Source: Reinekea forsetii (GTDB taxonomy: Bacteria; Pseudomonadota; Gammaproteobacteria; Pseudomonadales; Natronospirillaceae). From it: DNA of 64,000 bases. The DNA lies in assembly GCF_002795845.1 (NCBI RefSeq), contig NZ_CP011797.1, positions 2,580,001 to 2,644,000 on the forward strand. Direction: 5' to 3'. This document shows, one piece after another, positions 6,896 through 57,201 of the stretch. The first letter of the stretch is position 1. Each line of letters starts with the position of its first letter. The notes under the pieces were generated by a model. It searched no databases. It had not been told where the DNA came from and saw nothing but the letters and a program-made list of their open reading frames with translations. The translations under genes were made by a program, and so were the position numbers.

Positions 6896-7051
6896 CGCAA
6901 CTCTCTTTGGTTTTTAACATGGTTCGGTATTGAAACAGAGCTGGGCGCGAAAACTAAGGCGGATTTAGGCTGGGGGTGCATTGCAAATTGATTAGATAGA
7001 GCGAGCCGGGCATATGACTGGAGTCTATGCCTGGACTCGCGTGCTAAACGG

Positions 7052-8146: not shown

Positions 8147-9446
8147 TGATACGTTGCTCCGCGCTGCGGGCGTGGGCGGTTAAGAGTTCACCGCGCGCCA
8201 GTACTGATACGACCTTGCCCAATTCACTCGCCGCCGACGCCGAGGCGCCGATCAATGAGCTGCGTTTTTGGAAATCGTAGACCCCTAAGGGGCTGAAAAA
8301 TCGTGCCGTACCGCTGGTCGGCAGAACATGATTGGGTCCGGCGCAATAGTCGCCCAGGGCCTCAGAGGTATGCCGGCCCATAAAGATGGCACCGGCGTGC
8401 CGGATGTCGGGCAACCAGGCTTCAGGATCAGCCACCGACAGCTCCAAATGCTCTGGCGCGATCTTGTTGATCAACGCCTTGGCATCGTCGAGTTTGGGTA
8501 CCCAGATAAAGGCGCCTCGGGCATTGAGTGAGCGGCGTATGGTGTCGGCCCGTTCCATGGTCGGCAACAGGCGCTCGATCGCGGCCAGGGTTCGGCGCAA
8601 AAACTCCGCGTCATGGGAAATTAAGATAGCTTGGGCATCGTGGGAATGTTCGGCTTGGGAAAAGAGATCCATCGCGATCCAGTCCGGATCGGTCAGGCCG
8701 TCACAGATGACCAATATTTCACTCGGCCCGGCGATCATATCGATCCCGACCTTGCCAAAAACCTGCTGCTTCGCCGTTGCCACATAGGCATTGCCTGGGC
8801 CGACGATCTTATCAACGGCCGGCACCGTCTCGGTGCCATAGGCCAACGCCGCAATGGCTTGTGCGCCACCAAGCAGATAGACCTCGGTAACGCCGGCGAC
8901 AAAGGCCGCCCCCAAGACAAAGTCGTTGACCTGGCCACCCGGCGCCGGCGTGGTCATGATAATATCCCGAACCCCAGCGACCTTGGCCGGCAGAGCATTC
9001 ATAATAACCGAGGACGCCAGCGGTGCAACGCCGCCGGGCACATAGATACCGACTCGATCCATCGCCGTCACCTGCTGGCCTAAGACCACACCCAGATCAT
9101 CGGTATAGCGCCAGCTCTGGGCGATCTGCTTTTCGTGATAAGCGGTTACCCGCTCGGCGGAAAAGCGCAAGGCGGCTTTCTGCTGCGCCGGTAACCGTTC
9201 AAAGGCGGCGGCAATCTCGATCGCGCCCAAGCTTAGCTGCGCCATGGACTCGACCGGGAAGCGGTCGAATTGGTCCGACAGGCGGCACAGGGCGGCATCG
9301 CCCTCGGTGCGAACCTGCTGAATAATATCGGCCACGGTTTGCTGCAGGTTACCGTCAGAGACCGATTCCCAGGCCAAAAGCTGATTTAACGCCGTATCAA
9401 AACCGTCGTCAATCGAACGCAATTGCTTAATAGTTAGCGAACTCAT
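8139..9446 (-). CDS. hisD: Histidinol dehydrogenase
   Basis: This 435-residue zinc enzyme oxidises histidinol to histidine in two NAD-dependent steps. Family blocks are visible: [43 protein letters not shown], and APEHLEL with the catalytic Glu-His pair. Length is typical. It overlaps hisG by 4 bp (ATGA) upstream and hisC by 8 bp downstream. Confidence 0.97.
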
Positions 9447-10099
9447 GCTTGCTCCGAATTCCTTTTAATAGCTGCCGCCAACAGGGCGACTAGGGGTTTA
9501 ATAGTTTCGTCTTTCATCTTCAGGGCCAATCGGCTGGCCACCAAACGGCTGCTGATATCGGCGATAAACTCATCTGGAGCCAAACCATTGGCCTTTAGGG
9601 TATTGCCGGTATCGACTATATCCACAATGACATCGGCCAGATTCATAATGGGCGCCAGTTCCATACCGCCATACAACTTGATTAGATCGACCTGACGCCC
9701 CTGGTCGGCAAAGTAACGCCGCGCCACATTAATATATTTGGTGGCGACCTTTAACCTACCTGCCGGGAGGGCCACATCCTTCATCTTGGCCGTCATCAAT
9801 TGGCACTTGGCAATATTCAAATCGAGTAACTCATACATCTCTTCGGCACCGTGCTCCATCAGCACGTCCTTGCCGGAGACACCCAGATCTGCGACCCCAT
9901 ATTCAACATAGGTCGGCACGTCCACCGCCCGGATAATGATGAAATATACGTTGGGCTGCGTAGTTTCAAAAATAAGTTTACGGGATGTATGCACATCCTC
10001 AAGGGGCTCAATACCGGCTGCGGCAAATAGCGGCAAGGTTTCCTTTAAAATCCGCCCCTTGGACAGGGCAATGGTGATGCTCTCAGCACTTCGTTGCAT
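9443..10099 (-). CDS. hisG: ATP phosphoribosyltransferase, short form
   Basis: A 218-residue HisG that catalyses the first, committed step of histidine synthesis. The motifs [14 protein letters not shown] and [19 protein letters not shown] (PRPP-binding) are clear. It lacks the C-terminal regulatory domain of the long form (about 300 residues). Short HisG enzymes normally need HisZ for activity and feedback control; hisZ is not in the window and would be expected elsewhere in the genome. Confidence 0.96.
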
Positions 10100-10141
10100 G
10101 GTAACTCGCTAATCTGTTTAGTCAGGCTCTATAGATCCGAA

Positions 10142-10159
10142 AGGCGCTGTTGAGCGCCT
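10142..10159 (-). terminator. Hairpin in the murA-hisG gap
   Basis: AGGCGCT and AGCGCCT form a perfect 7-bp stem with a 4-nt loop, downstream of murA. In the transcript it is followed only by TTTCGG, a poor U-tract, so it may attenuate rather than end transcription into hisG. Confidence 0.35.
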
Positions 10160-10195
10160 ATGGGTCTATGAGAAAATGTATTCTGTCGAGCTCGA

Positions 10196-11700
<1,505 letters not shown>

Positions 11701-11845
11701 AGAGGGGTCTCATCATCAGAATAAAGGGGGCAAGAATATACGTAATAGAGGCACATATCGATATGAAAAACACTGTGCTCTGTACTGGCTCGCAAAATTT
11801 GCCACAGTATACACCCAAAGGCAGGCTTTTGGGCCCCCAGTCCGC

Positions 11846-12505
11846 TTACTCTCTAAAACGAATGCTCTTATAGGCGTCTTCAGTAATTCGCTCCCAAGCC
11901 AGGATAGTCGCATCCAGATCACCTCCAGCCTCACTGTAGAGCTGTTCGAATTGGGTACGGAAGGTCACCCCTAGGTTAATGCCGTTAAAGATGGCATTTT
12001 GCATTTTCCAGTCATCCGACTTCCGGCTGTAGTACACACTCTGCACCAACGGGTATTTGGGCCCATCAGGCGATATAACTTCCATATACACACGGGTATT
12101 GCGCAGGGTATCTTTTTTATCGTCCTGACTCGGCAATAGATTGACCTCAAAGGCGCCAAAGGCATAAATGCCGCCGGCATAGGTGTTGACCATACTGCGT
12201 TTAAAGACTTCCAAAAAACGAATTTTTTGCGCTCGGGTAGCCACACTATAGGCTTCGCCCATGACCTTTCGGGCAATGACTGAATAGCCAATGACCGGCT
12301 CGAGCAATTCGGTCACCTCGTCAAGATAAGCTTGTCGAGCCGCCTCATCCTCACTACCGGCATACTTGCGCACCACAGTCAGGATAGATTGAACTCCCTC
12401 GCGCACCGTTTCATCTGCCGCCTTGACCCCATCTTGAGCAAAAAGATGGCTGGGCATGGCCATTAATAGACCCGCCAGGCCCATAAAAGCTAATATCTTA
12501 CGCAT
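11846..12505 (-). CDS. mlaC: Periplasmic phospholipid-shuttle protein MlaC, separated from mlaFEDB
   Basis: A 219-residue protein with a cleavable signal peptide (MRKILAFMGLAGLLMAMPSHLFA) and an MlaC/Ttg2D domain containing RQAYLDEVTELLEPVIGY and VFKRSMVNTYAGGI. MlaC ferries phospholipid between the MlaA-porin complex in the outer membrane and the MlaFEDB transporter in the inner membrane. Here it has lost its usual upstream neighbours mlaF-mlaE-mlaD: only about 160 bp separate its start from the divergent CaCA gene. mlaB is also missing downstream. The rest of the system must be elsewhere or absent. Confidence 0.92.
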   Translation of the reverse strand: MRKILAFMGLAGLLMAMPSHLFAQDGVKAADETVREGVQSILTVVRKYAGSEDEAARQAYLDEVTELLEPVIGYSVIARKVMGEAYSVATRAQKIRFLEVFKRSMVNTYAGGIYAFGAFEVNLLPSQDDKKDTLRNTRVYMEVISPDGPKYPLVQSVYYSRKSDDWKMQNAIFNGINLGVTFRTQFEQLYSEAGGDLDATILAWERITEDAYKSIRFRE

Positions 12506-12664
12506 TTCACTCTCCTAGATTCATTTTGGCAGCAATCATAACAGTCTAGAGACGAACCTGTGATGAAGCCAGTGTCCAATTCTAGCGTAATTTGCCGTCA
12601 CAGGATTGCATTCTGGACGCAAAGCCCGTTAAATGCGCGGGATTAAAACTTTAGGCAGTACATT

Positions 12665-13630
12665 ATGTTGATCTTTTCCTTGGCTATTTTGGCCGGGCTT
12701 ATCTTACTGGTTCTCAGTGCCGATCGATTCGTAGCCGGAAGTGCCGCTATCGCGAATAACTTTGGCGTGCCGCACATTATCATCGGCGTCACCATTGTCT
12801 CGCTCGGCACATCGGCACCGGAAATTATTGTCGCCATCTTTGCCGCGCTGGACGATAAGATTGAGATTGCCATGGGCAATGCCATCGGCTCTAACATTGC
12901 CAACATCGGCCTAGTGCTCGGCATCACTGCGTTGATTGCGCCCATTCCAATCAGCAAGCGCTTGATCATCAATGAGAACTTAATCATGCTCGGCGTTGCC
13001 ATTCTCGCCGGCTTGGTATTGTTCAACTATATTATCGGCTTTATCGAGTCCCTGAGCCTTGTTCTGTGCCTGGCGGTGTTTTTGGCTTGGATCTATGTTC
13101 AGCATAAACGAGCCAATGGCAGTGACGCTGAGTTCGAAGAAGACATCCCCAGCGACATGACCAACAGCAAGGCCTTGGTGTTATTTGTGCTGGGCTTGGC
13201 CGTGCTGATTGGCAGTGCCCGCCTGCTGGTTTGGGGTGCTGTTGGTATCGCCAATCAATACGCCATCAGTGAAGCCATTATCGGTGCAACCATTATCGCC
13301 ATCGGCACCAGCTTGCCTGAACTGGCAGCATCGGTGGCCAGCGCACTAAAGAAACACCATGATATAGCGATCGGCAATATCTTGGGTTCCAATATATTTA
13401 ATCTCCTCGCCGTATTGGCCGTGCCGGGGCTAATTGCCCCAGGCGGTTTTGCCGCTGAGGTTTTTAACCGCGATTATTGGTTTATGTTGGCCATTAGCCT
13501 GGTCCTCTTTGCCGCTCTTTTTATCCAAGGCAAGCGTAATGCGAAACTGGGTCGCTATCTTGGCACGTTTTTTGTGGTAAGCTATGCAGTCTATGGCTAC
13601 ATCGTATTTCTGGCCGCAACCGCTGTGTAA
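12665..13630 (+). CDS. yrbG: Calcium/sodium antiporter (YrbG, CaCA family)
   Basis: A 321-residue integral membrane protein with about ten hydrophobic segments and the two inverted CaCA alpha repeats: SLGTSAPE at residues 46-53 and IGTSLPELAAS in the second half. An acidic cytoplasmic loop (GSDAEFEEDIPSD) separates the halves. It is the first gene of the yrbG-kdsD-lptCAB run; kdsD begins 3 bp after its stop. Confidence 0.92.
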   Translation: MLIFSLAILAGLILLVLSADRFVAGSAAIANNFGVPHIIIGVTIVSLGTSAPEIIVAIFAALDDKIEIAMGNAIGSNIANIGLVLGITALIAPIPISKRLIINENLIMLGVAILAGLVLFNYIIGFIESLSLVLCLAVFLAWIYVQHKRANGSDAEFEEDIPSDMTNSKALVLFVLGLAVLIGSARLLVWGAVGIANQYAISEAIIGATIIAIGTSLPELAASVASALKKHHDIAIGNILGSNIFNLLAVLAVPGLIAPGGFAAEVFNRDYWFMLAISLVLFAALFIQGKRNAKLGRYLGTFFVVSYAVYGYIVFLAATAV

Positions 13631-45035: not shown

Positions 45036-45354
45036 AATAGATCCTTAAGGAATTCAAGGTCGGAATTATAGGCAGCTTGATCTCAGAACAACACAGTTCA
45101 TCGTAAATTTGACCCCTAGATTAGGATCTGAACTCATTAGGTGCTCTAGTGAGTCCAGCCGCGCCAGGCTAGCGAGCTGATCGTTGCTACGCTGCCCGGT
45201 CACGGAACAGGGCCTAGCTCAGCAGCCCTGGTAATATGCAACCTTCGTTATCGTGAGAGTACAAGCCCCGCACCGTGACGGGGATTGCACCCATACAGAA
45301 AAGAACACTAACTGGTCAAGTTGAGAGACAGTGTTTGCTGAATCAAGTTAGGTT
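45036..45354. other. Non-coding stretch at the left edge of the island
   Basis: No ORF or family signature was found. One GC-rich hairpin (CCCCG...CGGGG near 45270) lacks a T-tract. The stretch probably represents decayed sequence between the core gene and the island. Confidence 0.4.
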
Positions 45355-46115
45355 TATCTAGGGAACACATCCGGTCCTACTACCGGTCCACCGAAACGGT
45401 ATCCTATTAGCACCACCGACCGGGCACGAAAGGCTAACCTAGGACGAACAGTGTGCTATATATGAGCTTGAGGAAGTATCCTCTATGTCGGGTGTTTAAC
45501 CAGTTATTTAACCAAGTCAAAGACTCAATAGCCTTGTAGCTCAAACAGCCCAGCCTTTTGTTCATAGGGCCCGACGACTAATTTTTGGTCATTGTCAGAC
45601 CAATCATTGATTGCCAACGAAAACCCCAAGATCTATGTGTTGCCATGATCGAGTAGGCCATTTTTATGTAAGCCTGGGATATAACAAATTGCACCATTAA
45701 ACTCGTCGGCGTGGCTTGATGACAACCACGTGGTCACGGCCGTTTGATGCTTAACCTTGAAATAATTGTCATCTTGATGAGCAGGCATACCCGCTCCGCC
45801 TACTGCGACCTCATTGAAACAATGCATGCTTTTTCAGCTCCACAGCCCACCTAACAGCTAGTCGGATAATGACACCAAGGCCTTTGTGAGGAAGCTCGCG
45901 ATAATAATCGCTCTAATTGTGGATACGTTCTACGTGCTTTAGGGTGACTAAATTTAATTTATCTTTAAAATGGACATCGTAACAGCTATAGCTGATGGCA
46001 CCGCAGTCTCAATGACCATCTGCGACTAGGCTACTAGGTTCAAACACTCACCTTGATCCAGAAACCCTTCAAACACTACGTAGCCATTATCGTCGAAAAA
46101 CCTCTTTAGCTCTTG
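45355..46115 (-). pseudogene. Decayed phytanoyl-CoA dioxygenase (PhyH) family gene
   Basis: Translated fragments on the minus strand follow the PhyH order. First ELKRFFDDNGYVVFEGFLDQ (ended by TAG). Later, in another frame, GMPAHQDDNYF with the iron-ligand HxD, NGAICYIPGLHKNGLLDHG, then TAG and LGFSLAINDWSDNDQ. Finally comes a weak C-terminal-like stretch with RPRLAFRAR. Several stop codons and at least one frameshift interrupt it. Its total length suits a gene of about 250 codons. It begins just after the last ABC-transporter gene. Confidence 0.6.
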
Positions 46116-46119
46116 GGAT

Positions 46120-47193
46120 CTATTCGCTTAATAAACACGAAACCATGTGCATACCCTTATCAGAACGGACCGCCTTCAATGTCGGCACTTCAGTTTTACA
46201 ACGCTCTATTCTTTTATGGCATCTCGGGTGAAAAGGACAACCTGATGGCGGATTTAAGGGGCTGGGGACGTCCCCTTCTAGAATAATCCGATGCGATCTC
46301 CGATCTAAGTCAGCGATTGGAATTGCTGACAAAAGAGCCTCAGTATAGGGGTGTAATGTGTGACTGTAGAGATCGTCCGCATTAGCCAGCTCGACAATCT
46401 TACCTAAATACATCACTGCAATCCGGTCGCAAATATATTCAGTCACGCTAAGATCATGGGTAATGAAAACGTAAGTTAGGTTACGTTCAGCTCTCAATTT
46501 TAGCAACAGTTCTAATACCTGTGCTTGTATTGAGACATCTAATGCACTGACGGCCTCATCACAAACTACAAGTTCGGGATTAACGAGTAACGCTCGCGCA
46601 ATGCCAATCCTCTGCCGCTGGCCACCCGAGAACTCATGAGGGTAACGGTCCATATCTTCTCGATGTAAATTTACCGATACTAATAAATCGCCAATAACCC
46701 TTCGTCGCTCGGCCTTCTTTGAGAAACCATGTGCTTTTAAGGGGTCTTCAAGAGAACCAAAAATAGTGAAGGCTGGATTAAGTGAGGAATGAGGATCTTG
46801 AAAAACGATCTGTAAATTCTTCCTAAACGGAATCATTTCGTCGCGACTAAGTTTACAAAGATCAATGGGCAGCTGATTGGTTATTGAGCCTTGATAATAG
46901 ACCGCGCCACTTGTTGGCTTAATGAGCTGCAGAATCGCTTTTCCCAATGTCGTTTTGCCGCAACCACTTTCACCCACAAGGCCAAGTACCTCACCTTTAT
47001 AAATATCTAAATCTATGCCGTCTACAGCTTTCACATGCCCCGTTGTTTTTTTGAATACTCCAGTTTTAACCGGAAAAAATAACTTCAGATCACGCAATGC
47101 CAATATTTTCTCATTAGGGTCAGCAGGCAATGCTTGATTAGGCTTAGCTTCAACTCCGAGGAGTTGGTTAGAATTATCAGTATGATTGTTCAT
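46120..47193 (-). CDS. ABC transporter ATPase, OppF/DppF type (sialic-acid locus)
   Basis: A 357-residue ABC ATPase with Walker A GESGCGKTTLG, signature FSGGQRQRIGIARAL and Walker B VCDEAVSALDV. A C-terminal oligopeptide-type extension carries cysteines for a possible Fe-S cluster (CPFHPRCHKRIERC). It starts directly after the stop of the OppD-type gene (TAAATG). With that protein it forms the ATPase pair of the transporter. Specificity for sialic acid is inferred from the adjacent nan genes; the family is otherwise called peptide or nickel transport. Confidence 0.88.
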   Translation of the reverse strand: MNNHTDNSNQLLGVEAKPNQALPADPNEKILALRDLKLFFPVKTGVFKKTTGHVKAVDGIDLDIYKGEVLGLVGESGCGKTTLGKAILQLIKPTSGAVYYQGSITNQLPIDLCKLSRDEMIPFRKNLQIVFQDPHSSLNPAFTIFGSLEDPLKAHGFSKKAERRRVIGDLLVSVNLHREDMDRYPHEFSGGQRQRIGIARALLVNPELVVCDEAVSALDVSIQAQVLELLLKLRAERNLTYVFITHDLSVTEYICDRIAVMYLGKIVELANADDLYSHTLHPYTEALLSAIPIADLDRRSHRIILEGDVPSPLNPPSGCPFHPRCHKRIERCKTEVPTLKAVRSDKGMHMVSCLLSE

Positions 47194-48189
47194 TTATGAA
47201 ATGGCCTCCAATTGGGAACACCTGACACTATGAGTTGCGGAAATATAAATTTCATCTGGCATCTCGTCACAGGCCTGAGTAGCATAGTCACATCGCGGTG
47301 CAAAACTACACCCCTTAGGTCGGTCATAGGAATCTGGGGTGGATCCTCGAATAGCCTTAATGTTCTGTTGCCGCCCTCGACCTAATATGGGTATTGACGC
47401 CAACAAGGCTCGGGTATACGGATGCTTAGGACGACGCAGGACATCCTCAACAGTGCCGGCTTCAACAATATTGCCCATATACATAACGGCTACATTATCG
47501 GCCAGTTCCGCTACAACACCCATATCATGAGTGATTAACATAATGGCAGTTTTGTGTTCTTGCTTAAGCTTATCCATTAATGTGAAGATCTGTGCTTGAG
47601 TGGTAACATCTAAGGCCGTGGTCGGTTCATCAGCTATTAAGACTTTTGGATTGCAAGACATCGCTATGGCGATCATGACTCGTTGTCGCATACCGCCAGA
47701 GAACTGATGTGGAAATTCATTCATCCTCACCTCTGGCATTGGAATACCCATGGTATGCAATAAATCAATTACTTTTAACTTTATCTCTTTGTCGTTTAGG
47801 ACTGAATGCTGCCTTAGGCTCTCCGCGATTTGATATCCTACTGTAAATACAGGATTCAAAGCTGTCATGGGGTCCTGAAAAATCATGGCTATTTCAGCCC
47901 CTCGTATTTTTCTAATTTCCACACCTTTCCGAGGAAGTTGGTCTAAACGCATCGGACCTTTTTCAGAGAAATAGGTAATACCGCCGTCTTCAATTCTAGA
48001 TAAATCTGGCAAAAGCTGCATAATCGACAAGGCAGTAATGGATTTTCCACAACCACTTTCGCCGACAATACAAAGTGTCTTACCTTTCAAAACATTAAAC
48101 GAAACACCATTTATGGCCTTATTACATCGGTTGTTGGTATATAGGTATGTTTTTAAATCCCTAACGCTCAAAGCAATATCATCAACCAT
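47194..48189 (-). CDS. ABC transporter ATPase, OppD/DppD type (sialic-acid locus)
   Basis: The second ATPase (331 residues). Motifs are [39 protein letters not shown] and the C-terminal Cys cluster [14 protein letters not shown]. The start is the ATG whose complement ends at 48189, 7 nt after an AGGGG lying in the end of the preceding permease gene. A longer in-frame start at 48240 lies inside that gene and is unlikely. Confidence 0.88.
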
Positions 48190-48193
48190 TGAA

Positions 48194-49117
48194 CTACCCC
48201 TGTTGAGTTGGATCGGCGGAGTCGCGTAGACCATCACCAATAAAATTAATACTCATTACAAAAAGGGAAATTACCATTCCTACCGGAAGCCAAAGCCACC
48301 AATAATTTTGCAATACCCTTAGATCTTGCGCTACATTCAGGATATTTCCCCAGGTCGGTATGTTGAGAGGGACACCCAGACCGAGAAAACTGAGCCCGGC
48401 CTCTGCCAATATAAACATTGCCGTTGTCAGGGTGATATTAACTGCAATAGGCCCCAATGCGTTTGGCAAAATATGTTTATAGCAAATAACAGATGTGGAT
48501 AACCCGAAGCTTCGTAGAGCTTGAACATATTCCTCTTCTCTGAGCGAAAGAAATTGTGCTCGGGTTAGTCTGTACATTGGTCCCCAGCCGGTTAAGACAA
48601 AGATAAAAATAAGATTTAATAAACTTTGCCCCACAATAGAAACCAACAGTAAAACCAATATAATTTGCGGAAAGGCCATCAATATTTCAGACATCCTCAA
48701 CGCCAATAGATCTACCCACCCTCCCTTATAGCCTGCGTAACTACCGATGCCAACACCTATAAATGCTGCAATTAGTGCACTTCCTAAGCCTACTAATATT
48801 GAAACACGACCACCATATAAAACCCTAGAAAACACATCTCGCCCTGTCTTATCCGTGCCAAATAGGTGCTCAGAAGATGGCTCTTGTAGCATACCTCTCA
48901 GATCAATTTTTTGTGGATCGTGATCCACTAAAAAAGGGGCAAACACTGAAGATAAGGTGATAATTAAAAATACGACCAAGCCGACCAGAGCCAATTTATT
49001 ATTAAACATCTTCCGCATCGCTCTATTGCCCTTTCTGGGCTTTAGCTTTCCGGCTTCTTCCATTGCAAGCAAAAGATCAAATTTTCTATTTAGTGCTGAT
49101 TCGGTTCTATTTATCAT
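48194..49117 (-). CDS. ABC transporter permease, OppC/DppC type (sialic-acid locus)
   Basis: A 307-residue permease with six membrane segments, the N-terminal OppC_N helix, and the binding-protein-dependent EAA-like loop (EEYVQALRSFGLSTSVICYKHILPN, in which the short glycine is typical). FGTDKTGRDVFSRVLYG is a family hallmark. It starts 12 bp after the OppB-type gene. Confidence 0.9.
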   Translation of the reverse strand: MINRTESALNRKFDLLLAMEEAGKLKPRKGNRAMRKMFNNKLALVGLVVFLIITLSSVFAPFLVDHDPQKIDLRGMLQEPSSEHLFGTDKTGRDVFSRVLYGGRVSILVGLGSALIAAFIGVGIGSYAGYKGGWVDLLALRMSEILMAFPQIILVLLLVSIVGQSLLNLIFIFVLTGWGPMYRLTRAQFLSLREEEYVQALRSFGLSTSVICYKHILPNALGPIAVNITLTTAMFILAEAGLSFLGLGVPLNIPTWGNILNVAQDLRVLQNYWWLWLPVGMVISLFVMSINFIGDGLRDSADPTQQG

Positions 49118-49129
49118 AAATTAACTCCG

Positions 49130-50089
49130 TTAATTCAATCGAATACGCGGATCGATAAGTGCTGTCAACACGTCTATAACTAGGCTTGATATCAAAACAG
49201 CAAATACGGACAGCAGAGCTATCATCATCACTAAGGGATAATCTTGACCGCGCACTGCAAAAACAAATTCGTTGCCAATACCTGGCCATTGAAATACTTG
49301 TTCAATTATCACTGAACCACCAATCATAATCGGCAATCTGAAGCCGATCAACACAACCACAGGTGTTAAAGCTACTCTAAACCCATGGATGAAATTTATG
49401 CGCCATTCAGATAAACCTTTAGCCCGAGCAGTCCGAATAAACTCCCTAGAGAGCGAATCCAGCATTGCTGACCGAGAATAGCGCATAACCCCAGCAGTCA
49501 TCATCAGCGACATCACTAACCCGGGTAACACTAAGTGAGGGATCCTATCAAAAAACGAATCATAACCCGGCAACAAACGTCCACCAACGGGGAGCCAATG
49601 CAGGTGCAGAGCAAAGAGCAAAATAGCCACAAGCCCAAAGAAAAACTCTGGTATTGAAATACCGAGCATACCCGTGACAGATAGGGTGCTATCAGTCCAA
49701 GTGCCTTTATTTAGAGCACCAAATATACCCAAGACACAGCCAAATATCGTCGAAAAAACAATAGCAACAAAAGATAGCTCTAACGTAGCAGGCAAGCGAT
49801 CAAAAACAATTTCAGAAATGGCGACCCCACCTGATAGCGAGTGGCCAAAGTCACCCCGTAATACATGCGATAGCCATATAAAATACCGCTCAATAAAAGG
49901 TTTATTTAGACCCAAATTTTCTCGCAGCGCCAAAAGTTGTTCTGGTGAAATTTGATTCGCAATTTCCGGATTAATCATATGGGAAACAGCATCACCTGGA
50001 GTAAGTTCTAATCCTAGATATACCAAGAAGCTAATTATTATCAACATGGGGAATACAATTAATAATCGCCGAATAATAAATGTTAGCAT
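49130..50089 (-). CDS. ABC transporter permease, OppB/DppB type (sialic-acid locus)
   Basis: A 319-residue permease beginning MLTFIIRRLLIVFPMLIIIS, typical of OppB. It has LGLNKPFIERYFIWLSHVLRGDFGHS and the EAA loop SREFIRTARAKGLSEWRINFIHGFRVAL. It is the first gene after the stem-loop that follows the binding-protein gene. Confidence 0.9.
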   Translation of the reverse strand: MLTFIIRRLLIVFPMLIIISFLVYLGLELTPGDAVSHMINPEIANQISPEQLLALRENLGLNKPFIERYFIWLSHVLRGDFGHSLSGGVAISEIVFDRLPATLELSFVAIVFSTIFGCVLGIFGALNKGTWTDSTLSVTGMLGISIPEFFFGLVAILLFALHLHWLPVGGRLLPGYDSFFDRIPHLVLPGLVMSLMMTAGVMRYSRSAMLDSLSREFIRTARAKGLSEWRINFIHGFRVALTPVVVLIGFRLPIMIGGSVIIEQVFQWPGIGNEFVFAVRGQDYPLVMMIALLSVFAVLISSLVIDVLTALIDPRIRLN

Positions 50090-50147
50090 TTCGGTTTCCT
50101 ATGTTTATATTAGTAATAAAAAAAATAGCGTTGACAAATATAATATT

Positions 50148-50189
50148 TATAAAAAATACAAAAAAGCAACCTGAATTTCTTCAGGTTGC
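50148..50189 (-). terminator. Stem-loop between binding-protein gene and permease genes
   Basis: GCAACCTGAA and TTCAGGTTGC form a perfect 10-bp stem with a 4-nt loop, followed on the minus strand by a T-rich run. It lies 16 nt after the binding-protein stop. Such partial terminators inside ABC operons commonly let the binding protein be made in excess of the membrane parts. Confidence 0.75.
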
Positions 50190-50204
50190 CTGAACTTTAT
50201 CTAA

Positions 50205-51818
50205 CTATGGTTTTTTTGGATATGAGTTCATCCGCAGCGAACGAGTGTATGGAATATCAGCAGGAACAACTTTCATATTTTCCATTGCCTCAAGAGCCTT
50301 GACATCCCCAACCGATTTTGTAAAGCCAAAGTCGAGTCTGCCTGCTGCCGCATTTTTCAAAACGTTCGCGTCATTTTCGCCGCTTGGGAATGAAACGATC
50401 TCGCCTATCTTTGCAATTCCACCATGATAGTCGGCAAATGGCGTATATCGAACAAAATCGTTCATCTGAACTTCTTCAATCTTATACGGACCGGAACCCA
50501 CCGGATTTTGCCAATATGACTGCTGTTGAAATTCCAGTGGATTTACGCTACCCAATAGGTGCATAGGCAATGGAGGGAACTGACTAAAGGTTAACAACAT
50601 GTTGGGATCTAAGGTTGCGAAATTGAACGTCACCTTACGCCCATCCACAACAATACCCGATACTCCTTTCACACCGCCAGAGGTATAGTCTTGAGCACCC
50701 TCAATTGATTCAAACGTTTTAGCGAACACTGCGTTAATGCCAGGAACCTTCATTGCCAATTCGACAGACCCTTTAACATCACTACCTGTCAGGTCAAAAC
50801 CATCATGCCATTTCAAATCCTTTTTAAGTTCGAATGACACCGACATGCCGTCTTTGCTTACTTTAAAGCTCTTGGCTAACTGACCTTTGGTTGGCACCAG
50901 GGAACCATCCGCAGTCAAGAGCCGATCAAAAGTTATTTTTTGCTGGATTGTTATGCCAGGATTTAGCCAAGGATGCTCGAAAAACTGGCTTGGAGCGGTA
51001 TTGGTATAAGCGACTCTCTTGCCGTCCTTATCAGCTTCAACAGTCCAGTCTAATAGACCCCAATCATAATTGAATTGCTCGTTGCCATAGGATCCACCGT
51101 GACGATTTATGCGATCACTTTCATACACAAAAAGCTGCTGATAATACAAAGGAATATCAGTTAGATTCTTGTTTTCATATTTCTCGAAATCAACAAAAGC
51201 CTGCTTCTGCTCCTTTACATTGACAGTACCATTTATTCGGCTGATCAATTTGTCGACTTGCGCACTACCGGGCGAATAGGAGTTCTTGCCTGACTGGTAG
51301 CCATTATAATATTCCTGTAAAGCTAACGCCGCTTTCGCACCGTATGCCATATCCCACTCAATGGCACTTGTTTCAGAACCTGCAGTAGCCAATTTACCTA
51401 ATTGGCCACCTACATCACCTTCAAGTTTTCGATAGGTAATCTTAATACCAACATCACCCAGATAGGCCTGCAGCGCTACCATTAGGTCGGCTGTCAATTG
51501 ATCGCCATAGTAGTAAACTACATCGAGCGTTTGCGTGTCATCCCAGCCGGCATCTTTTAATAACGCACGCGCCTTGTCTGGATTATACCCATAATTATCA
51601 AGGCCAGGCGCTTTCCAAGCCCCATTAGGAATCATCGAGTCGGCCGCAATGGCCTTCCCTTCTAGCAAAGTGTCAGCAATAGTCTCCATGTCAATTGCAT
51701 AGGCAATGGCCTGCCGTACACGAACATCAGACAATTGGTTCACCTTTTCCGCAAAAGCAAAAGAAGATGATACCTGTATAGCTGCAATTAGTGCTGCTAT
51801 TCCGAATATTTTTTTCAT
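50205..51818 (-). CDS. Circularly permuted SBP_bac_5-type solute-binding protein (sialic-acid locus)
   Basis: A 537-residue secreted protein. The signal peptide is MKKIFGIAALIAAIQVSSSFAFA; the start is supported by AGGTGA and an upstream ATG at 51881 has no family match. Residues 24-262 match the usual C-terminal half of family-5 binding proteins: DVRVRQAIAYAIDMETI, YNPDKARALLKDAGW, DIPLYYQQLFVY. Residues 268-537 match the usual N-terminal half: DRLLTADGSLVPTKGQLAKS, FELKKDLKWHDG, NPVGSGPYKIEE, then SLRMNSYPKKP, which normally precedes DVRVRQA. Both halves look complete and in frame. I infer sialic acid as ligand from context, as for the SatA family of Haemophilus ducreyi. Confidence 0.88.
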   Translation of the reverse strand: MKKIFGIAALIAAIQVSSSFAFAEKVNQLSDVRVRQAIAYAIDMETIADTLLEGKAIAADSMIPNGAWKAPGLDNYGYNPDKARALLKDAGWDDTQTLDVVYYYGDQLTADLMVALQAYLGDVGIKITYRKLEGDVGGQLGKLATAGSETSAIEWDMAYGAKAALALQEYYNGYQSGKNSYSPGSAQVDKLISRINGTVNVKEQKQAFVDFEKYENKNLTDIPLYYQQLFVYESDRINRHGGSYGNEQFNYDWGLLDWTVEADKDGKRVAYTNTAPSQFFEHPWLNPGITIQQKITFDRLLTADGSLVPTKGQLAKSFKVSKDGMSVSFELKKDLKWHDGFDLTGSDVKGSVELAMKVPGINAVFAKTFESIEGAQDYTSGGVKGVSGIVVDGRKVTFNFATLDPNMLLTFSQFPPLPMHLLGSVNPLEFQQQSYWQNPVGSGPYKIEEVQMNDFVRYTPFADYHGGIAKIGEIVSFPSGENDANVLKNAAAGRLDFGFTKSVGDVKALEAMENMKVVPADIPYTRSLRMNSYPKKP

Positions 51819-52091
51819 TACTTCACCTATAATTGTTATTATAATACAACCCATCTGATTTACAAGACGGCCTGAGACCATCTAAAAATACAGACACCTT
51901 TCCCGTAAGATAGACCCAGCCTGGGTTTGGCAATGGAACCATCACTACATTCTCATTAACTTTTTTCTTTTTTCTTTTTTCTTTGTTAAATCAAAACAGT
52001 CGATTTAAAAATTCGACACGCACCCGGAATGTAAAAATAAATCACATCACGACTAAATATAAATATCAAGAAGTTGAGGTATTAGTTAATC
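51819..52091. other. Promoter-bearing gap upstream of the transporter operon
   Basis: About 270 bp, AT-rich, with a long pyrimidine run (repeated CTTTTTT near 51960-51990). It must hold the promoter of the transporter operon and the 3' end of the nanA transcript. No clear hexamers, regulator palindrome or small ORF was seen. Confidence 0.35.
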
Positions 52092-52973
52092 TCATAAAGC
52101 TGAACTAATAAAATCATCAACTAATCTTTTCTGCATAGAATCCAACATCCTAAAAGGCGCCCTAACCGTATCTGTCGCAATGATGCCTTTCTGTTGCAAT
52201 ATGTATTTCAACCCTGGAATTACACCAACAAGAACCAATAAATCGATTAGCCTATTCGCGGATTTCTGTACAGACTTCGCCCTACCCACATCGCCACTAC
52301 AAATTAATTTTTGAATTTCTTTATATTTACTTCCAATAACATTATAAGTACTACCAATACCACCCTGAGCTCCAGCCATCTGCCCAGGAAGGAATATTTC
52401 ATCAAACCCATTAAAAACTATCTTTCCCGGATTTCTGTTGGCGATTTTTTCCAGCTGGTACAGATCAATAGATGTTTGCTTTATCCCTATGACGTTTTCC
52501 AAGTTAAGTAATTCTTCAATTTGCATATCACTCAGTGCAACACCTGTCAGAACGGGTATGTTATATACAATCATGGGCAGTCCGTCTGCCGCATCCACTA
52601 TCGCTCGATAGTGGTCAAGTAAAGCATCAAAACTAAAACCGTAATAGAACGGCGTAACTGCAGAGACGGCATGATAGCCTGCACCTTTGGCCGCATTAGC
52701 CAGCTCACAGCAATCCTTAGTTCGGATAGAACCTACGTGAGCGATCAGATTTAACTTCCCTAAACTTGATTCAGCTACCGACTCCAAACAATCTCTTCTT
52801 TCGGCCTGACTTTGCAAAAAGGCCTCGCCCGTAGAACCACCCACATAAACCCCCGTTAAGTCTTGGTCTATTGCATTAACAACTAACGACTGCAGGCTTT
52901 TAAAATCTATGTTTTCCTTCTGGTCAAACGGGGTAAGCAGCGCTGCATATTCTCCAGCAAAATTTTTAGTCAT
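52092..52973 (-). CDS. nanA: N-acetylneuraminate lyase
   Basis: A 293-residue DapA-superfamily aldolase. It cleaves Neu5Ac to ManNAc and pyruvate. The sequence has GSTGEAFLQSQAER, the Schiff-base lysine region VIGIKQTSIDLYQLEKI, YNIPVLTGV, and GAQGGIGSTYNVIG, closer to NanA than to dihydrodipicolinate synthase. The ribosome binding site GGAGG is 6 nt before the ATG. Neighbouring nanK and nanE confirm the pathway. Confidence 0.93.
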   Translation of the reverse strand: MTKNFAGEYAALLTPFDQKENIDFKSLQSLVVNAIDQDLTGVYVGGSTGEAFLQSQAERRDCLESVAESSLGKLNLIAHVGSIRTKDCCELANAAKGAGYHAVSAVTPFYYGFSFDALLDHYRAIVDAADGLPMIVYNIPVLTGVALSDMQIEELLNLENVIGIKQTSIDLYQLEKIANRNPGKIVFNGFDEIFLPGQMAGAQGGIGSTYNVIGSKYKEIQKLICSGDVGRAKSVQKSANRLIDLLVLVGVIPGLKYILQQKGIIATDTVRAPFRMLDSMQKRLVDDFISSAL

Positions 52974-53148
52974 ATAAACCTCCGAATTACATTAAAAAAT
53001 TATATATAAATATTCCATTTATTCTATTCACGTTACCAAAAAAATATTTTGTGAATTGCATATCTGAATTTTGTGTCACCTAACCTCAGCCCCAGAACTA
53101 CCGAGCATAACCCTCAGATTAGATTAACAATGCTACACCTTATTCTGC
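52974..53148. other. AT-rich gap between nanK and nanA
   Basis: Contains AAAATATTTT at 53041-53050, whose core AAATATTT resembles the palindromes near the RpiR gene but lacks the outer TG/CA. A promoter for nanA is likely here. No gene is seen. Confidence 0.3.
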
Positions 53149-54036
53149 TTAACCAGCCTCATCCTTATTACTTAATTGTGCAACTCCGACCAGACCCGAA
53201 TCGGAACCTAAGGCAGCTGTTGTGATCTCAGCTCGAAATACCGTCGGATTTTTAAGCATATAAAACCTCACTCGCTCGCGAAATAAATCAAGTAATCCAA
53301 CCCCACCGCCCAGCACTGCACGGTCTATGCCCATTGTTGCATTCATGTTGACAATCAGATCCGATATCGCATGGGCAGCTTGGTCGATTACCCGCGCACA
53401 TTCGCTGTGGGTGTAGTATCGAGCAAAGACCTCAATAGTGCTGAGTGTTTCGCCACAAGCAACCGTTGCTCGATGAGCAATCGCGGTTCCCGAGGCAATG
53501 GTTTCAATACAGTTCGTACGACCACAGGAACAATGGTATACACCCAGTCCGGGCAAGGAATGCTGACAGTGCCCAGCATGGGAAGCCAAGCCATTCGCAC
53601 TGCTCACAAGCCTATCGTTTACAATTAAACCCGAGCCTACTCCCGTGGAAATCGTTAGATATAGGATGCTGTGCACCAGCGGACCATCGCTGGTTTGCAT
53701 GCATTGGAATTCACCCCAAGCTGCAGCCGCTGCATCATTAACCACGAATACGGGCTGGCTAAATAATTTTGTTAATTCATCGGTAATAGGCAAGGCGTTC
53801 CAGAACGAAATCATCTCCGTATTAAGTGGCTGTAAAACGCCCTCGACTATTCGACCCGTCGTGGCCACTGCAACTCGATCAAATTGCCAAGTTCCGATCA
53901 ACTCCCTTAACGCTCGCGCAAACATGGCCCAATTCGGCGATTGGGTTGATATACTCCTTTTTTCGACAATTTTTAAGTTGGGGCCTATTAAGGCCGCCGA
54001 AGTCTTGGTTCCACCAATATCCAATGCAAGTATCAC
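53149..54036 (-). CDS. nanK: N-acetylmannosamine kinase (ROK family)
   Basis: A 295-residue ROK-family kinase that phosphorylates ManNAc to ManNAc-6-P. It has the ATP-binding motif [37 protein letters not shown], the substrate-binding Glu-His region [10 protein letters not shown] and the zinc motif [15 protein letters not shown]. The start is a GTG overlapping the nanE TGA by 4 bases, so the two are translationally coupled. Confidence 0.92.
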
Positions 54037-54746
54037 CTGCTTGTCCCCCCAACTGGGTAATCAACATTTGCCAATGATGTAACATACCAACTAGAAATTC
54101 TTTCGATTCGAGTTATGGCTGAACCGACTGTCACAGCGAAGGCGCCAGCGTGCAACGCGGCTGCCGCTAATTCAGGTGAATTATATCGGCCTTCCGCAAT
54201 CACCTCACATCCGGCCAATTTCAGCTGGGTCACCAAGCCTATGTCTGGCAAGTCTGGCGCCACCCCTGAGGTATAACCCGAAAGCGTACTGCCAATGTAG
54301 TCGCACCCTAACTGATAGGCGTTTAAACCGTCTTCAAAGCTGGAGGCATCAGCCATTGCCAAGCAACCATGCTGATGTATTCGCTCAATAAGCTGTTTCA
54401 CGGGCACTGGGCGCTTGCGGTTAGTGGCATCAAATGCAATAACCTGTGCGCCAGCTCTAGCTAAGGAATCAACATCTGCCAACAAGGGCGTTATAATTAC
54501 CGGACTGTCGGTCAAGTCGCGCTTAATAATGCCTACGATGGGCACACTCACTGCACTAAAAACTGCTGCCACATTAGCAGCGCCTTCAATTCGCAGACCG
54601 TGACAGCCTCCCTCCACCGCCGCTCTAGCCATAGCAGTTATGATAACTATCGAATCCATTGGGCCACCCAAGACGGGCTGACATGACACTATGAGACCGC
54701 GATCAAGTCGCTGGCGGACATTGGTACTTATATCTAGGTCGCTCAT
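54033..54746 (-). CDS. nanE: N-acetylmannosamine-6-phosphate 2-epimerase
   Basis: A TIM-barrel epimerase of about 237 residues that turns ManNAc-6-P into GlcNAc-6-P. Blocks include [42 protein letters not shown] and [12 protein letters not shown]. The start is either the ATG ending at 54746, chosen because it fits NanE length, or one three codons upstream; neither has a good ribosome binding site. nagA and nagB, the next steps, are not in the window. Confidence 0.92.
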
Positions 54747-54796
54747 AAGAAACATTAACCTTATATGAAGCTAATAATCATAACAATAATGAAAGC

Positions 54797-54864
54797 TGAA
54801 ATATTTCACCATAAACTAACACCAGTGAAATAATATTTCAATACGCCATGATGAAATATTTCAT
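54797..54864. promoter_or_regulatory. Three palindromic operators between nanE and rpiR-type gene
   Basis: TGAAATATTTCA (54797-54808), TGAAATAATATTTCA (54826-54840) and ATGAAATATTTCAT (54851-54864) are perfect palindromes sharing TGAAAT and ATTTCA arms. Centres are about 30 and 25 bp apart. A decayed fourth copy (TGAAGGAATATTTGC) starts at 54880. They are the obvious binding sites of the adjacent RpiR protein, controlling both divergent genes. The assignment is inferred from position. Confidence 0.7.
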
Positions 54865-54947
54865 ACACCATGCCTTTCATGAAGGAATATTTGCTAGTGG
54901 AAGTTTGATTTAGTAAAGTGCCTACCATTGGATCCCACTTGAGATAT

Positions 54948-55799
54948 ATGATGAAAACTCAACCTAAGGTTTTGGCGCAGCTTCTTTCCAACACTAATGG
55001 ACTCTCCCCCGCCCTAGAACGCATTGGCAGTTATGTTAAAAAAGAACCAGATAAAGTGATTTTTCAAACAATTACAGAATTGAGTGAGAATGCCAAATCA
55101 AGTGAAGCAAGTGTTATTCGGTTTTGTCGAGACATTGGCTTTAACAGCTTTGCAGATTTTAAGATGTCTCTTGCTATTGAGTTGAATAGTAAGGGTTCTC
55201 TCAATGCACAGAAGAACAACGGCACCAATAATACTTTCGAAACCCCCTTCGACACTGCCAATGATGCCATGCAGGCCCTGGCAACAACTGCCGAACTCAT
55301 AGACAGCCTGCTCATAAAGCAGTGTGCGGACTGGATAGATAAGGCCGAATCAGTCGATATTTATGGTGTCGGCGCATCGTCTATTATCGCCAACTACGCT
55401 GAATATCGAATGATAAGACTGGGAATTACATCGCGGGCATACAGCGATATGCACTTAGGTTTAATGAGTGCGGTAAAGCGAAAGCAGAACGACGTGGTTA
55501 TTTGCATTTCAAGCAGCGGCTCAACTGTCGATATCGTCAAAGCGGCCAAACTCGCACAAGAACAGGGTGCAAAAGTTATTGCGATTTCCAATACCAAAAA
55601 AAGCCCGTTAGCAAAGGACGCCGACTGTCTATTAGTCGCCAGTTCACCTGAATCCCCCCTAACAGCGGGGAAGCTGGCGTCCAAAGTAGGGCAGTTGCTA
55701 TTAATAGATCTTGTCATGACCAATATCTACATTAGAAATGCAAAATACCAGCTATCTCAACAAGAAACCGCCGATGCGATCAGCGGCTTGCTTTTTTAG
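54948..55799 (+). CDS. RpiR-family regulator with SIS domain (nan locus)
   Basis: A regulator of about 283 residues with the RpiR N-terminal HTH (VIFQTITELSENAKSSEASVIRFCRDIGF) and a C-terminal SIS domain (about residues 115-250, DIYGVGASSIIANYAEYRM; VVICISSSGSTVDIVKAAKLA). SIS domains bind phosphosugars, so ManNAc-6-P or GlcNAc-6-P is the likely signal, as for NanR/SiaR of Vibrio and Haemophilus. Start: ATG at 54948 or 54951, or an upstream in-frame ATG at 54918; the N-terminus favours the later ones. Confidence 0.88.
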   Translation: MMKTQPKVLAQLLSNTNGLSPALERIGSYVKKEPDKVIFQTITELSENAKSSEASVIRFCRDIGFNSFADFKMSLAIELNSKGSLNAQKNNGTNNTFETPFDTANDAMQALATTAELIDSLLIKQCADWIDKAESVDIYGVGASSIIANYAEYRMIRLGITSRAYSDMHLGLMSAVKRKQNDVVICISSSGSTVDIVKAAKLAQEQGAKVIAISNTKKSPLAKDADCLLVASSPESPLTAGKLASKVGQLLLIDLVMTNIYIRNAKYQLSQQETADAISGLLF

Positions 55800-55834
55800 G
55801 TCCGCCAAGCTACGCCCAATAATATTCGCGGCGC

Positions 55835-55858
55835 TGCCCCGTCCTAATATATGTTGAC
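55835..55858 (+). repeat. Right inverted repeat of IS copy 2
   Basis: Reads TGCCCCGTCCTAATATATG then TTGAC. The third base differs from the other three IS ends. Confidence 0.8.
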
Positions 55859-55884
55859 GGTTTTTATTGAGCCAACTGAGCATC

Positions 55885-56703
55885 TCAGTTGGCTTTTTCA
55901 TGCACGCTTGCTGGGGTTCGCATCCCCAAACTGCTGTGCGGTCGTTTGTGATTATACGCATCGATTGACTCTTTCACGACCTGCTCCAGCTCCTCTTTGT
56001 CTTTGTATTGATGGATTAAGAACTCGTTTTTTAGAATGCCGTTAATCCTCTCTGCCAACGCATTCTGGTAACAATCGTAGCCTGTGGTCATTGAAGGCGT
56101 GATACCTTGTGACGCCAAGCGTGATTGATACAGCTCAGAACAGTATTGTAGTCCTCGGTCCGAATGATGAATGGCCCGTTCTCTGCTCTGTCGTTCGATA
56201 AGCATTTGGTCTAATGCCTTTACCACGGATTTCGCTGACAGATCATCACTGACGTGATGACCTACAATCTTTCGAGAATACGCATCGGTCACCAACGAGA
56301 GGTAATGCACCCCCTCTCGACTTTCCAAGTATGTGATATCGCTCACATAGGCCTGCTCTGGTCGGTCAATGGCCATTCCCTGGTACAGGTTTGGGTATTT
56401 TCGCATCCAATGCTTACTGTGCGTGGTTTTACGGTACTGACGTGCCGGCATGATTAAGAGACGATGCTGCCTTAATAGCGTAAACAAACCATCCCGCCCC
56501 AGTTTAATCTGTTGCCGTTGGAGCTCTGGCTGCAAAAGGTGGTAGAGCTTCCGGCCACCTAAGCGCGGCAAGTCACGACGTATCGTATATACCCAGTCCA
56601 GTACGGGTGATAGCGCCGTTGATTTTTGGCGTTTTCGAGCAAGCTCTTGATACATGGCTTGTCGAGAAATACCTATCAAACGACAGCTTCGAGCCAGTGT
56701 CAT
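55885..56703 (-). CDS. IS3-family transposase OrfB (DDE), copy 2
   Basis: An intact 272-residue DDE transposase, identical to copy 1 except Asp for Asn in HHVSDDLSAK. The catalytic residues in YVSDITYLES, HHSDRGLQY and NALAERINGI are retained. Confidence 0.95.
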   Translation of the reverse strand: MTLARSCRLIGISRQAMYQELARKRQKSTALSPVLDWVYTIRRDLPRLGGRKLYHLLQPELQRQQIKLGRDGLFTLLRQHRLLIMPARQYRKTTHSKHWMRKYPNLYQGMAIDRPEQAYVSDITYLESREGVHYLSLVTDAYSRKIVGHHVSDDLSAKSVVKALDQMLIERQSRERAIHHSDRGLQYCSELYQSRLASQGITPSMTTGYDCYQNALAERINGILKNEFLIHQYKDKEELEQVVKESIDAYNHKRPHSSLGMRTPASVHEKAN

Positions 56704-57089
56704 TCGTCCTCTTGCTTGAGCTTCTCGGGCAACAACTCTAAGAACTTTTTTCGGAAAGAGGTCCCCTTAATCTGGTCGACTCGCTTGATCGTTTCATCCA
56801 TCAGGTAAATGTAATCTTCTTTGTCTTCGAGGGCTTTCTCGAGCCGTTTAATTTTTTGTTCTGGGGTTTCTTTATTCATGAGGGGTTTTACACGTTGAGA
56901 GGTCCAGTCCAAGGTACCATGCTTACGAAGCCACACCAAAACGGTTGATCGGCCTTGAATGCCGTAGCGCTTTTGAGCCTGTTTGTAGGTGAGTTCGCCT
57001 TTTTCAACTTGGTCGACCACTGACAATTTAAAGGCCAGGGTGTAATCACGCTGAGTGCGCTTTCGGCCTGTGTTAGAACAGGATTCCAT
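56700..57089 (-). CDS. IS3-family OrfA (HTH protein), copy 2
   Basis: A 129-residue protein identical to copy 1 except Glu for Lys in ALEDKED. It overlaps orfB by ATGA. Confidence 0.92.
   Translation of the reverse strand: MESCSNTGRKRTQRDYTLAFKLSVVDQVEKGELTYKQAQKRYGIQGRSTVLVWLRKHGTLDWTSQRVKPLMNKETPEQKIKRLEKALEDKEDYIYLMDETIKRVDQIKGTSFRKKFLELLPEKLKQEDE
56745..56751 (-). other. Programmed -1 frameshift site of IS copy 2
   Basis: A-AAA-AAG in the orfA frame on the minus strand, at the same place as in copy 1. Confidence 0.65.
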
Positions 57090-57106
57090 AAATAAGTCTC
57101 CAAGGT

Positions 57107-57130
57107 GTCAACTTATTTCAGGACGGGTCA
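57107..57130 (-). repeat. Left inverted repeat of IS copy 2
   Basis: Read inward on the minus strand it is TGACCCGTCCTGAAATAAG then TTGAC, the same as the left end of copy 1. Confidence 0.85.
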
Positions 57131-57138
57131 GCGCCAAT

Positions 57139-57164
57139 AAAAAAAGCCCCTATATTCAGGGGCT
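57139..57164 (-). terminator. Rho-independent terminator of ssb
   Basis: On the minus strand AGCCCC and GGGGCT pair around an 8-nt AT-rich loop, followed by seven T. It lies about 40 bp after the ssb stop. IS copy 2 inserted 8 nt beyond the T-tract. Confidence 0.9.
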
Positions 57165-57201
57165 AATTAAATTACTTCACGCAAATGCTCTTAGGTAACC
57201 C

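Follow-up and report, generated by a model that had tools for sequence, protein, structure and literature searches.

Tp0684 (TpMglB-2) of Treponema pallidum is a naturally permuted binding protein of an ABC importer, for which a cluster Bc has been proposed. According to the accessible part of that report, its ligand binding and closing were shown by experiment, and its topology is common to related proteins elsewhere (PMC4990184). SatA of Haemophilus ducreyi (PDB 5yyb and 5z99) is described, in the available text, as a family-5, three-domain binding protein of a sialic acid ABC importer (PMC11364026).

The window, by which we mean the whole stretch of DNA analyzed, is 64,000 nucleotides (nts) of the Reinekea forsetii genome, and coordinates given without another label refer to it. 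On its minus strand lies a gene whose product we read, with a probability of roughly 0.86, as the periplasmic binding protein of an Opp/Dpp-type importer of sialic acid, belonging to a clade that shares one circular permutation of the family-5 protein; neither binding nor transport was measured. The parts of the gene are as follows.

50205..51818, minus strand: circularly permuted family-5 solute-binding protein of 537 amino acids (aa) (open reading frame [ORF], motifs, PF00496, PDB matches, rotation, and structure)
51750..51818, minus strand: signal peptide, about residues 1 to 23 (judged by eye)
51033..51749, minus strand: N-terminal half, about residues 24 to 262, equivalent to the canonical C-terminal half (structure matches to NikA and DppA)
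51018..51062, minus strand: joint of the old C terminus and the old N terminus, residues 253 to 267 (rotation optimum)
50208..51032, minus strand: C-terminal half, about residues 263 to 537, equivalent to the canonical N-terminal half (matches to AppA and DppA; PF00496 positions 4 to 209)

Order of the two halves

The first-pass annotation, made from the letters alone, had reported a continuous frame in which the motifs that normally end a family-5 binding protein precede those that normally begin one, and had inferred a true circular permutation. The frame (50205-51818, minus strand) is indeed open through 537 codons, and its translation contains the quoted motifs in the order given. A longer ORF starting with ATG reaches 51881; 51818 looks like the better start because AGGTGA precedes it and the signal-peptide-like stretch begins there. 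No column is invariant over residues 1 to 28 in an alignment of 15 members (A1), and the signal peptides vary among the permuted members, the Treponema protein having a lipobox-like LGCSKS.

The only Pfam family above its cutoff in the window protein was PF00496 (E = 7.8e-58; 196.8 bits versus a cutoff of 32.4), which all 15 members of A1 matched at E values of 0.001 or better. The match fell into two stretches, the better of which placed residues 312 to 533 on positions 4 to 209 of the 368-position profile, and relative to PDB chains the order was reversed. Thus, the collinear alignment along PF00496 that would have refuted the permutation did not occur; the canonical relatives L061, L073, and L060 each had one collinear stretch. 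Aligned to Escherichia coli DppA (8z1y), residues 26 to 99 fell on chain residues 301 to 375 and residues 255 to 475 on chain residues 17 to 243, which is the reverse of the canonical order, and comparisons with NCBIfam and the PDB mapped the N-terminal half to the canonical C-terminal half. By sequence, rotation (see below), and predicted structure, residues ∼26 to 260 correspond to the canonical C-terminal half and residues ∼260 to 533 to the canonical N-terminal half. Judged from these alignments, the window protein is a permuted relative of solute-binding protein family 5 and not a canonical member of it.

All rotations of the mature sequence were scored by local alignment against 10 canonical proteins. 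Rotation raised the score against every one of them (10/10), for example from 264 to 456 for the Deinococcus protein L060, from 297 to 419 for L061, and from 118 to 208 for L004, a paralogue in the same genome. Each optimum extended over a plateau of 23 to 179 rotations, and starts at residues 253 to 267 were optimal for all 10 proteins. In the control, six pairs of canonical proteins compared in steps of 4, the unrotated score was never beaten (6/6). The swapped order is far beyond chance. When the halves were exchanged, each of the best 60 of 79 PDB matches was a single stretch, and residues 18 to 506 of 510 covered residues 20 to 494 of 497 in 8efz. The rotation plateau and the collinear match to 8efz indicate that the old ends meet at about residues 253 to 267 and that a few residues separate the new ends from the cut. 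The joint region is conserved like the rest of the protein, with 15/47 invariant columns over residues 244 to 290 versus 115/505 over residues 29 to 533.

No reads were available for the region, and the first-pass annotation had itself raised misassembly. That the order is an artifact of assembly or annotation is nonetheless scarcely credible, as the genome is assembled into a single 3.66-Mb contig and is 99.99% complete, and the same order is found in 24 proteins from separate assemblies.

Other descriptions of the gene were also rejected. Two separate genes at 50205-51818 were ruled out, as was a protein carrying both orders in duplicate, since the 537 aa contain each half once. A pseudogene was rejected on the basis of 25 open frames and the conserved joint; the exceptions among the 25 frames were L020, which lacks a start at a contig end, L018, which has ambiguous bases, and L011, which has a 14-column gap.

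Distribution of the permuted form

A scan of a genome collection of 84,980 species yielded 31 relatives. Fourteen of these (L008 to L020 and L023) were full or near-full length and aligned as one collinear tblastn segment with 48% to 76% identity; one is from a named cultured strain, Treponema lecithinolyticum ATCC 700332 (L023), and the rest are titled MAG. Three others (L021, L022, and L024) were cut by contig ends, although L021 and L022 still span the joint. The remaining 14 were remote (31% identity or less), 10 having the halves in canonical order and 4 having one half only. Most relatives from the scan are metagenome bins, and their taxonomic labels may be wrong.

Profile searches found permuted proteins in 9/247 other genomes of Treponema's class (10/248 with the genome at the center of the search) and in 1/288 others of the alphaproteobacterial class of L015 (2/289 with the center); the further members from both searches scored 680 to 898 bits. 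With profile A1, the 11 permuted rows each gave one domain (681 to 971 bits), and each of the nine canonical genes was split into two or three domains whose order was swapped (119 to 208 bits summed). The search for homologues with the same order proposed by the first-pass annotation was thus successful: there are 25 distinct permuted proteins of full or near-full length, that of the window and 24 further ones, from the Alphaproteobacteria, the Gammaproteobacteria, and Treponema's class.

Among 398 genomes of the window phylum, profile A1 matched three, the window genome and two with canonical proteins, and found no other permuted protein. Sequence searches found the window genome only, both among 369 genomes of its class (1/369) and among 57 relatives (1/57), and no permuted protein was found in six genomes of the same genus. 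There was no A1 match at 1e-20 in the genomes of the organisms with the canonical hits L025, L028, and L034 (0/3). E. coli genomes gave no DNA match, viral contigs gave no relative, and a viral structure library gave nothing at an E value of 0.001 or below. Among plasmids, 714 records had remote matches (<60% identity), and the one examined (H1) was canonical. Phyla beyond the Proteobacteria and that of Treponema were sampled by the 84,980-species scan only.

Origin of the permutation

We compared a tree of the binding proteins (25 de-rotated and 10 canonical) with a tree of the four transporter subunits from 25 permuted and 10 canonical operons. The permuted rows were on one side of a branch in the binding-protein tree (90/99) and on one branch in the transporter tree (100/100). 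Two canonical loci from the sample of Treponema's class, L061 and L073, adjoined the permuted group in both trees (86/97 for the binding protein and 100/100 for the transporter). A long branch leads to L016, L068, and L069 in the transporter tree. When paralogous operons from the window genome itself serve as the root, the canonical order is inferred to be ancestral; the outgroup was not one clean side in the binding-protein tree, and several canonical branches were long. These results are most simply read as one old permutation that was later passed between phyla.

The protein could instead be a chimera, in which the C-terminal half of one paralogue was fused before the mature N-terminal half of another, e.g., in a tandem pair. 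The nearest canonical relatives by score do differ between the halves: the C-terminal half best fits L061 (162.7 bits, versus 92 to 96 for the Deinococcus and L062 proteins), and the N-terminal half best fits the Deinococcus and L062 proteins (about 106 bits, versus 50 for L061). In half-by-half trees the permuted branch had values of 99/99 for one half and 73/80 for the N-terminal half alone; in the tree of the N-terminal half, L061 and L073 were also separated from the permuted proteins by longer paths than were L062, L060, and L063. Family-5 matches in tandem are present in L027 and L035. However, L061 and L073 neighbor both halves (94/70 and 88/77, moderate support), rapid evolution of the C-terminal halves of these two could account for the discordant scores, and nearly the whole length of the de-rotated protein aligns collinearly with 8efz. 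We consider a chimera distinctly unlikely, although the weak 73/80 branch and the raw scores that differ by half mean that it is not excluded.

A single permutation of one family-5 protein remains our preferred reading. Its origin by tandem duplication and trimming, which the first-pass annotation had suggested, has not been shown; the only DNA repeats inside the gene that might be a trace of duplication are a pair of 14 bases, at 50560 and 51696. In Metaclostridioides mangenotii two family-5 matches lie in tandem (L027 8001-10934 and L035 8001-11026), which is the arrangement that a duplication-and-trimming origin would need.

Predicted structure and the hinge

AlphaFold models were obtained for the window protein (pLDDT, 75.2; pTM, 0.70; confidence low at residues 134 to 165 and 277 to 295) and for its relative L013 (pLDDT, 74.6; pTM, 0.70). 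In the window model, residues 257 to 523 matched residues 19 to 264 of AppA (1xoc; Z, 18.3; rmsd, 2.9; 227 aligned), residues 268 to 523 matched residues 1 to 262 of DppA (1dpp; Z, 15.9; rmsd, 3.6; 227 aligned), and residues 26 to 231 matched residues 257 to 474 of NikA (1uiu; Z, 17.6; rmsd, 2.8; 193 aligned). In the L013 model, residues 25 to 262 matched DppA from residue 272 to 507, its very C terminus (1dpe; Z, 19.6; rmsd, 2.6; 222 aligned), and residues 26 to 295 matched residues 254 to 478 of the sialic acid binding protein 5yyb (Z, 18.5; rmsd, 2.6; 193 aligned); among the 50 matches listed for L013, it was mainly the N-terminal half that lay on canonical C-terminal halves. Foldseek alone aligned 209 to 273 columns in the 50 matches listed, about half of the protein. 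The structural matches listed are family-5 proteins, and the list alone would not exclude other classes. The halves match family-5 structures separately at Z values of about 16 to 20, but the models have pLDDT values of only about 75.

The halves of the window model thus match family-5 chains in swapped order. Three observations support a true permutation: each half retains the family-5 fold in the predicted structure, the junction of the old termini coincides with the end and start of canonical chains, and the order recurs in the 24 other proteins.

Because the match of the window model ends at DppA residue 262 and that of the L013 model begins at DppA residue 272, the opening of the chain falls between DppA residues ∼262 and ∼272. 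From the models we infer that the cut lies in the first of the two inter-lobe strands; the packing of the halves and the closeness of the new termini were not measured. The proposed arrangement is that the old C and N termini were joined at residues 253 to 267 and new termini were created at the canonical chain's first passage from lobe 1 into lobe 2. Residues ∼24 to 231 would then fold as lobe 2, and residues ∼232 to 533 as a lobe 1 that is now contiguous. A single covalent hinge crossing would be left, with the free termini in place of the other, and the lobes would be expected to close around the ligand in the canonical manner.

We suggest only tentatively, at somewhat short of even odds, that the cut in this clade of cluster C (family 5) coincides precisely with one of the two hinge crossings, leaving a single covalent hinge strand with which these proteins function. 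Each lobe would then be made of one continuous stretch, and the signal peptide or lipid anchor would be carried by the opposite lobe. Retention of the cut may reflect altered opening and closing or altered tethering, in step with the transporter lineage that travels with it.

Operon and likely ligand

The genes around the binding-protein gene are as follows.

46120..47193, minus strand: DppF-like ATPase (PF00005, PF08352)
47194..48240, minus strand: DppD-like ATPase, whose true start may lie downstream (PF00005, PF08352)
48194..49117, minus strand: Opp/Dpp-type permease C (PF00528, PF12911)
49130..50089, minus strand: Opp/Dpp-type permease B (PF00528, PF19300)
52092..52973, minus strand: N-acetylneuraminate lyase NanA (NF003164, 350.7 bits; cutoff, 281)
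53149..54036, minus strand: ROK kinase, NanK-like (PF00480)
54033..54755, minus strand: N-acetylmannosamine-6-phosphate epimerase NanE (PF04131; NF002231, 292.9 bits; cutoff, 189)
54918..55799, plus strand: RpiR-family regulator, divergent (PF01418, PF01380)

The permeases and ATPases are downstream of the binding-protein gene, and NanA, the NanK-like kinase, and NanE are upstream, followed by the RpiR-family regulator. The gene therefore sits with a sialic acid catabolic set, in which NanA and NanE are above curated cutoffs and the kinase is below (its best NCBIfam match is N-acetylmannosamine kinase, at 239.1 bits versus a cutoff of 283). Against TIGR00683 (nanA), the window NanA scored 314.5, under the cutoff of 382. 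The intergenic region between the divergent nanE and rpiR genes contains two perfect palindromes, TGAAATATTTCA, at 54797-54808 and 54852-54863; with up to one mismatch, TGAAATATTTCA has three matches in the window versus 0.20 expected. These palindromes are possible operator sites of the RpiR regulator.

In the permuted loci L008 to L018, the two permeases adjoin the binding protein in 11/11, both ATPases are present in 10/11 (the contig of L009 ends first), and a DHDPS/NanA-like gene is near in 11/11; NanE and NanK-like genes were found in 3/11 of the stretches examined. L008 has NanM, NanA, NanE, and NanK-like genes, and the truncated L021 also has NanE and NanK-like matches. The permuted operons of spirochaetes keep the transporter, and their other neighbors vary: among the stretches L064 to L072, five of nine had a DHDPS/NanA-like match (L064, L065, L068, L069, and L071), and no NanA-like gene was found in the stretch examined for the other four (L066, L067, L070, and L072). 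The lyases of L023, L064, L065, L068, and L071 were under the N-acetylneuraminate lyase cutoff (L064 and L068 were scored as partial sequences, and L069 was not scored), and that of L071 fits dapA better. Canonical relatives occur in comparable settings: L060, on a plasmid of Deinococcus sp. D7000 (CP058535.1), is beside an annotated sialidase, NanM, and NanE; the lyase at L062 is above the cutoff (311.4 versus 281); and the L073 locus has two BNR-repeat proteins. The lyases of L060 and L073 fit dapA better than nanA.

Because nanA, nanK-like, nanE, and rpiR genes and its own transporter lie alongside, sialic acid is most likely the ligand in the Proteobacteria, and the ligand may differ in the spirochaetes; this is inferred from gene neighbors, with no binding or transport data. 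The binding protein would serve an Opp/Dpp-type ABC importer of a sialic acid, handing the ligand to permeases B and C, with import driven by the two ATPases, and the imported ligand would presumably be degraded by NanA, NanK, and NanE.

The permutation could be real and the ligand be something else, such as a related keto-sugar acid, a glycoside, or a peptide. The ligands of family-5 relatives with solved structures include peptides, opines, nickel chelates, and oligosaccharides, the spirochaetal permuted operons have mixed neighbors with lyases that are below the cutoff or dapA-like, and the lyase beside the canonical Deinococcus relative is closer to dapA than to nanA. Yet NanA and NanE of the window pass curated cutoffs, a NanA-like gene is near the binding protein in every one of L008 to L018, and canonical relatives also reside in such loci (the Deinococcus plasmid and L062). 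We regard a ligand other than sialic acid as unlikely, if worth keeping in mind.

Two spirochaetal loci have further neighbors of interest. In L023 (T. lecithinolyticum), genes for GFO/IDH/MocA oxidoreductases lie beside and within the permuted operon (6632-7870 and 11624-12706). Such oxidoreductases occur in 2,7-anhydro-Neu5Ac pathways, and by analogy this operon may take up a derivative of sialic acid. In L065, three sulfatase genes (7181-13438) surround the permuted binding-protein gene, hinting at ligands from sulfated glycans.

Probable genomic island

The operon and nan genes, with an integrase-core transposase (PF00665), occupy 12.2 kb (45036-57201) between ssb and an rmlD-like gene. 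The ssb and rmlD-like genes are contiguous with an MFS gene in G005, G001, and G009. G+C content is 43.4% over 46120-54755 versus a mean of 52.9% (SD, 1.3; minimum, 50.6) for 87 windows of equal size outside. On these sequence features, namely, contiguous flanks elsewhere and low G+C, and because the six genomes of the same genus yielded no permuted protein, the ∼12-kb region is most likely a horizontally acquired island. At the left edge (45036-46119), no ORF reaches 80 aa over about 1.1 kb, which is possibly decayed sequence. In G006, the MFS and rmlD-like genes are about 13 kb apart without the permuted gene, so the site may be an insertion hot spot.

Comparison with known systems

SatA resembles the window protein in its family-5 match and in the fit of the L013 model to 5yyb (see above). 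Its order is canonical with two hinge strands, whereas the order of the window protein is swapped. SatA is remote in sequence and is not the closest solved structure: with the halves exchanged, 5isu, 8efz, and 8upi lead, and 5yyb is at row 50 of the best 60 of 79 matches (E = 1.3e-8). DppA, OppA, NikA, and AppA are homologous to the window protein in both halves and have a similar predicted fold, but the opposite order of halves. The Deinococcus protein L060 (CP058535.1) has about 30% identity to each half and sialic-acid-type neighbors, as annotated; unlike the window protein, it is canonical, with one PF00496 stretch.

The swap is a real natural rearrangement of a common nutrient-binding protein, inherited by relatives in distant bacteria. 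It amounts to a natural experiment on how far closing and delivery depend on a two-strand hinge or on where the termini are placed, and it provides a natural biosensor scaffold with termini near the hinge. Searches that assume a linear order break such proteins into partial matches.

Among the open-access literature matches listed, most subscription journals being outside their scope, we found no permuted family-5 binding protein, which agrees with the first-pass annotation, to which no permuted sialic-acid or Opp-type binding protein was known; the published case, as far as the report is accessible, is TpMglB-2 of cluster B (PMC4990184). Like TpMglB-2, so far as its description could be consulted, the window protein is a permuted periplasmic binding protein of an ABC importer whose order is common to a clade (25 proteins on one branch). 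The two differ in fold and in the place of the cut. In the available text, TpMglB-2 has the cluster B glucose-binding fold, in which the strands of the N lobe follow a different order and the hinge has gained a fourth crossing. The window protein, by its Pfam class (PF00496), does not meet the criterion of the cluster B (MglB) fold; it belongs to family 5 (cluster C), has its cut close to the hinge between the lobes, and would have one crossing fewer. Within the literature searched, and as far as its sources were accessible, natural permutation of a binding protein was already known for cluster B only. Family 5 is thus a second permuted class, in a very common transporter family, with a seemingly single traceable origin, canonical sisters, and a spread across phyla.
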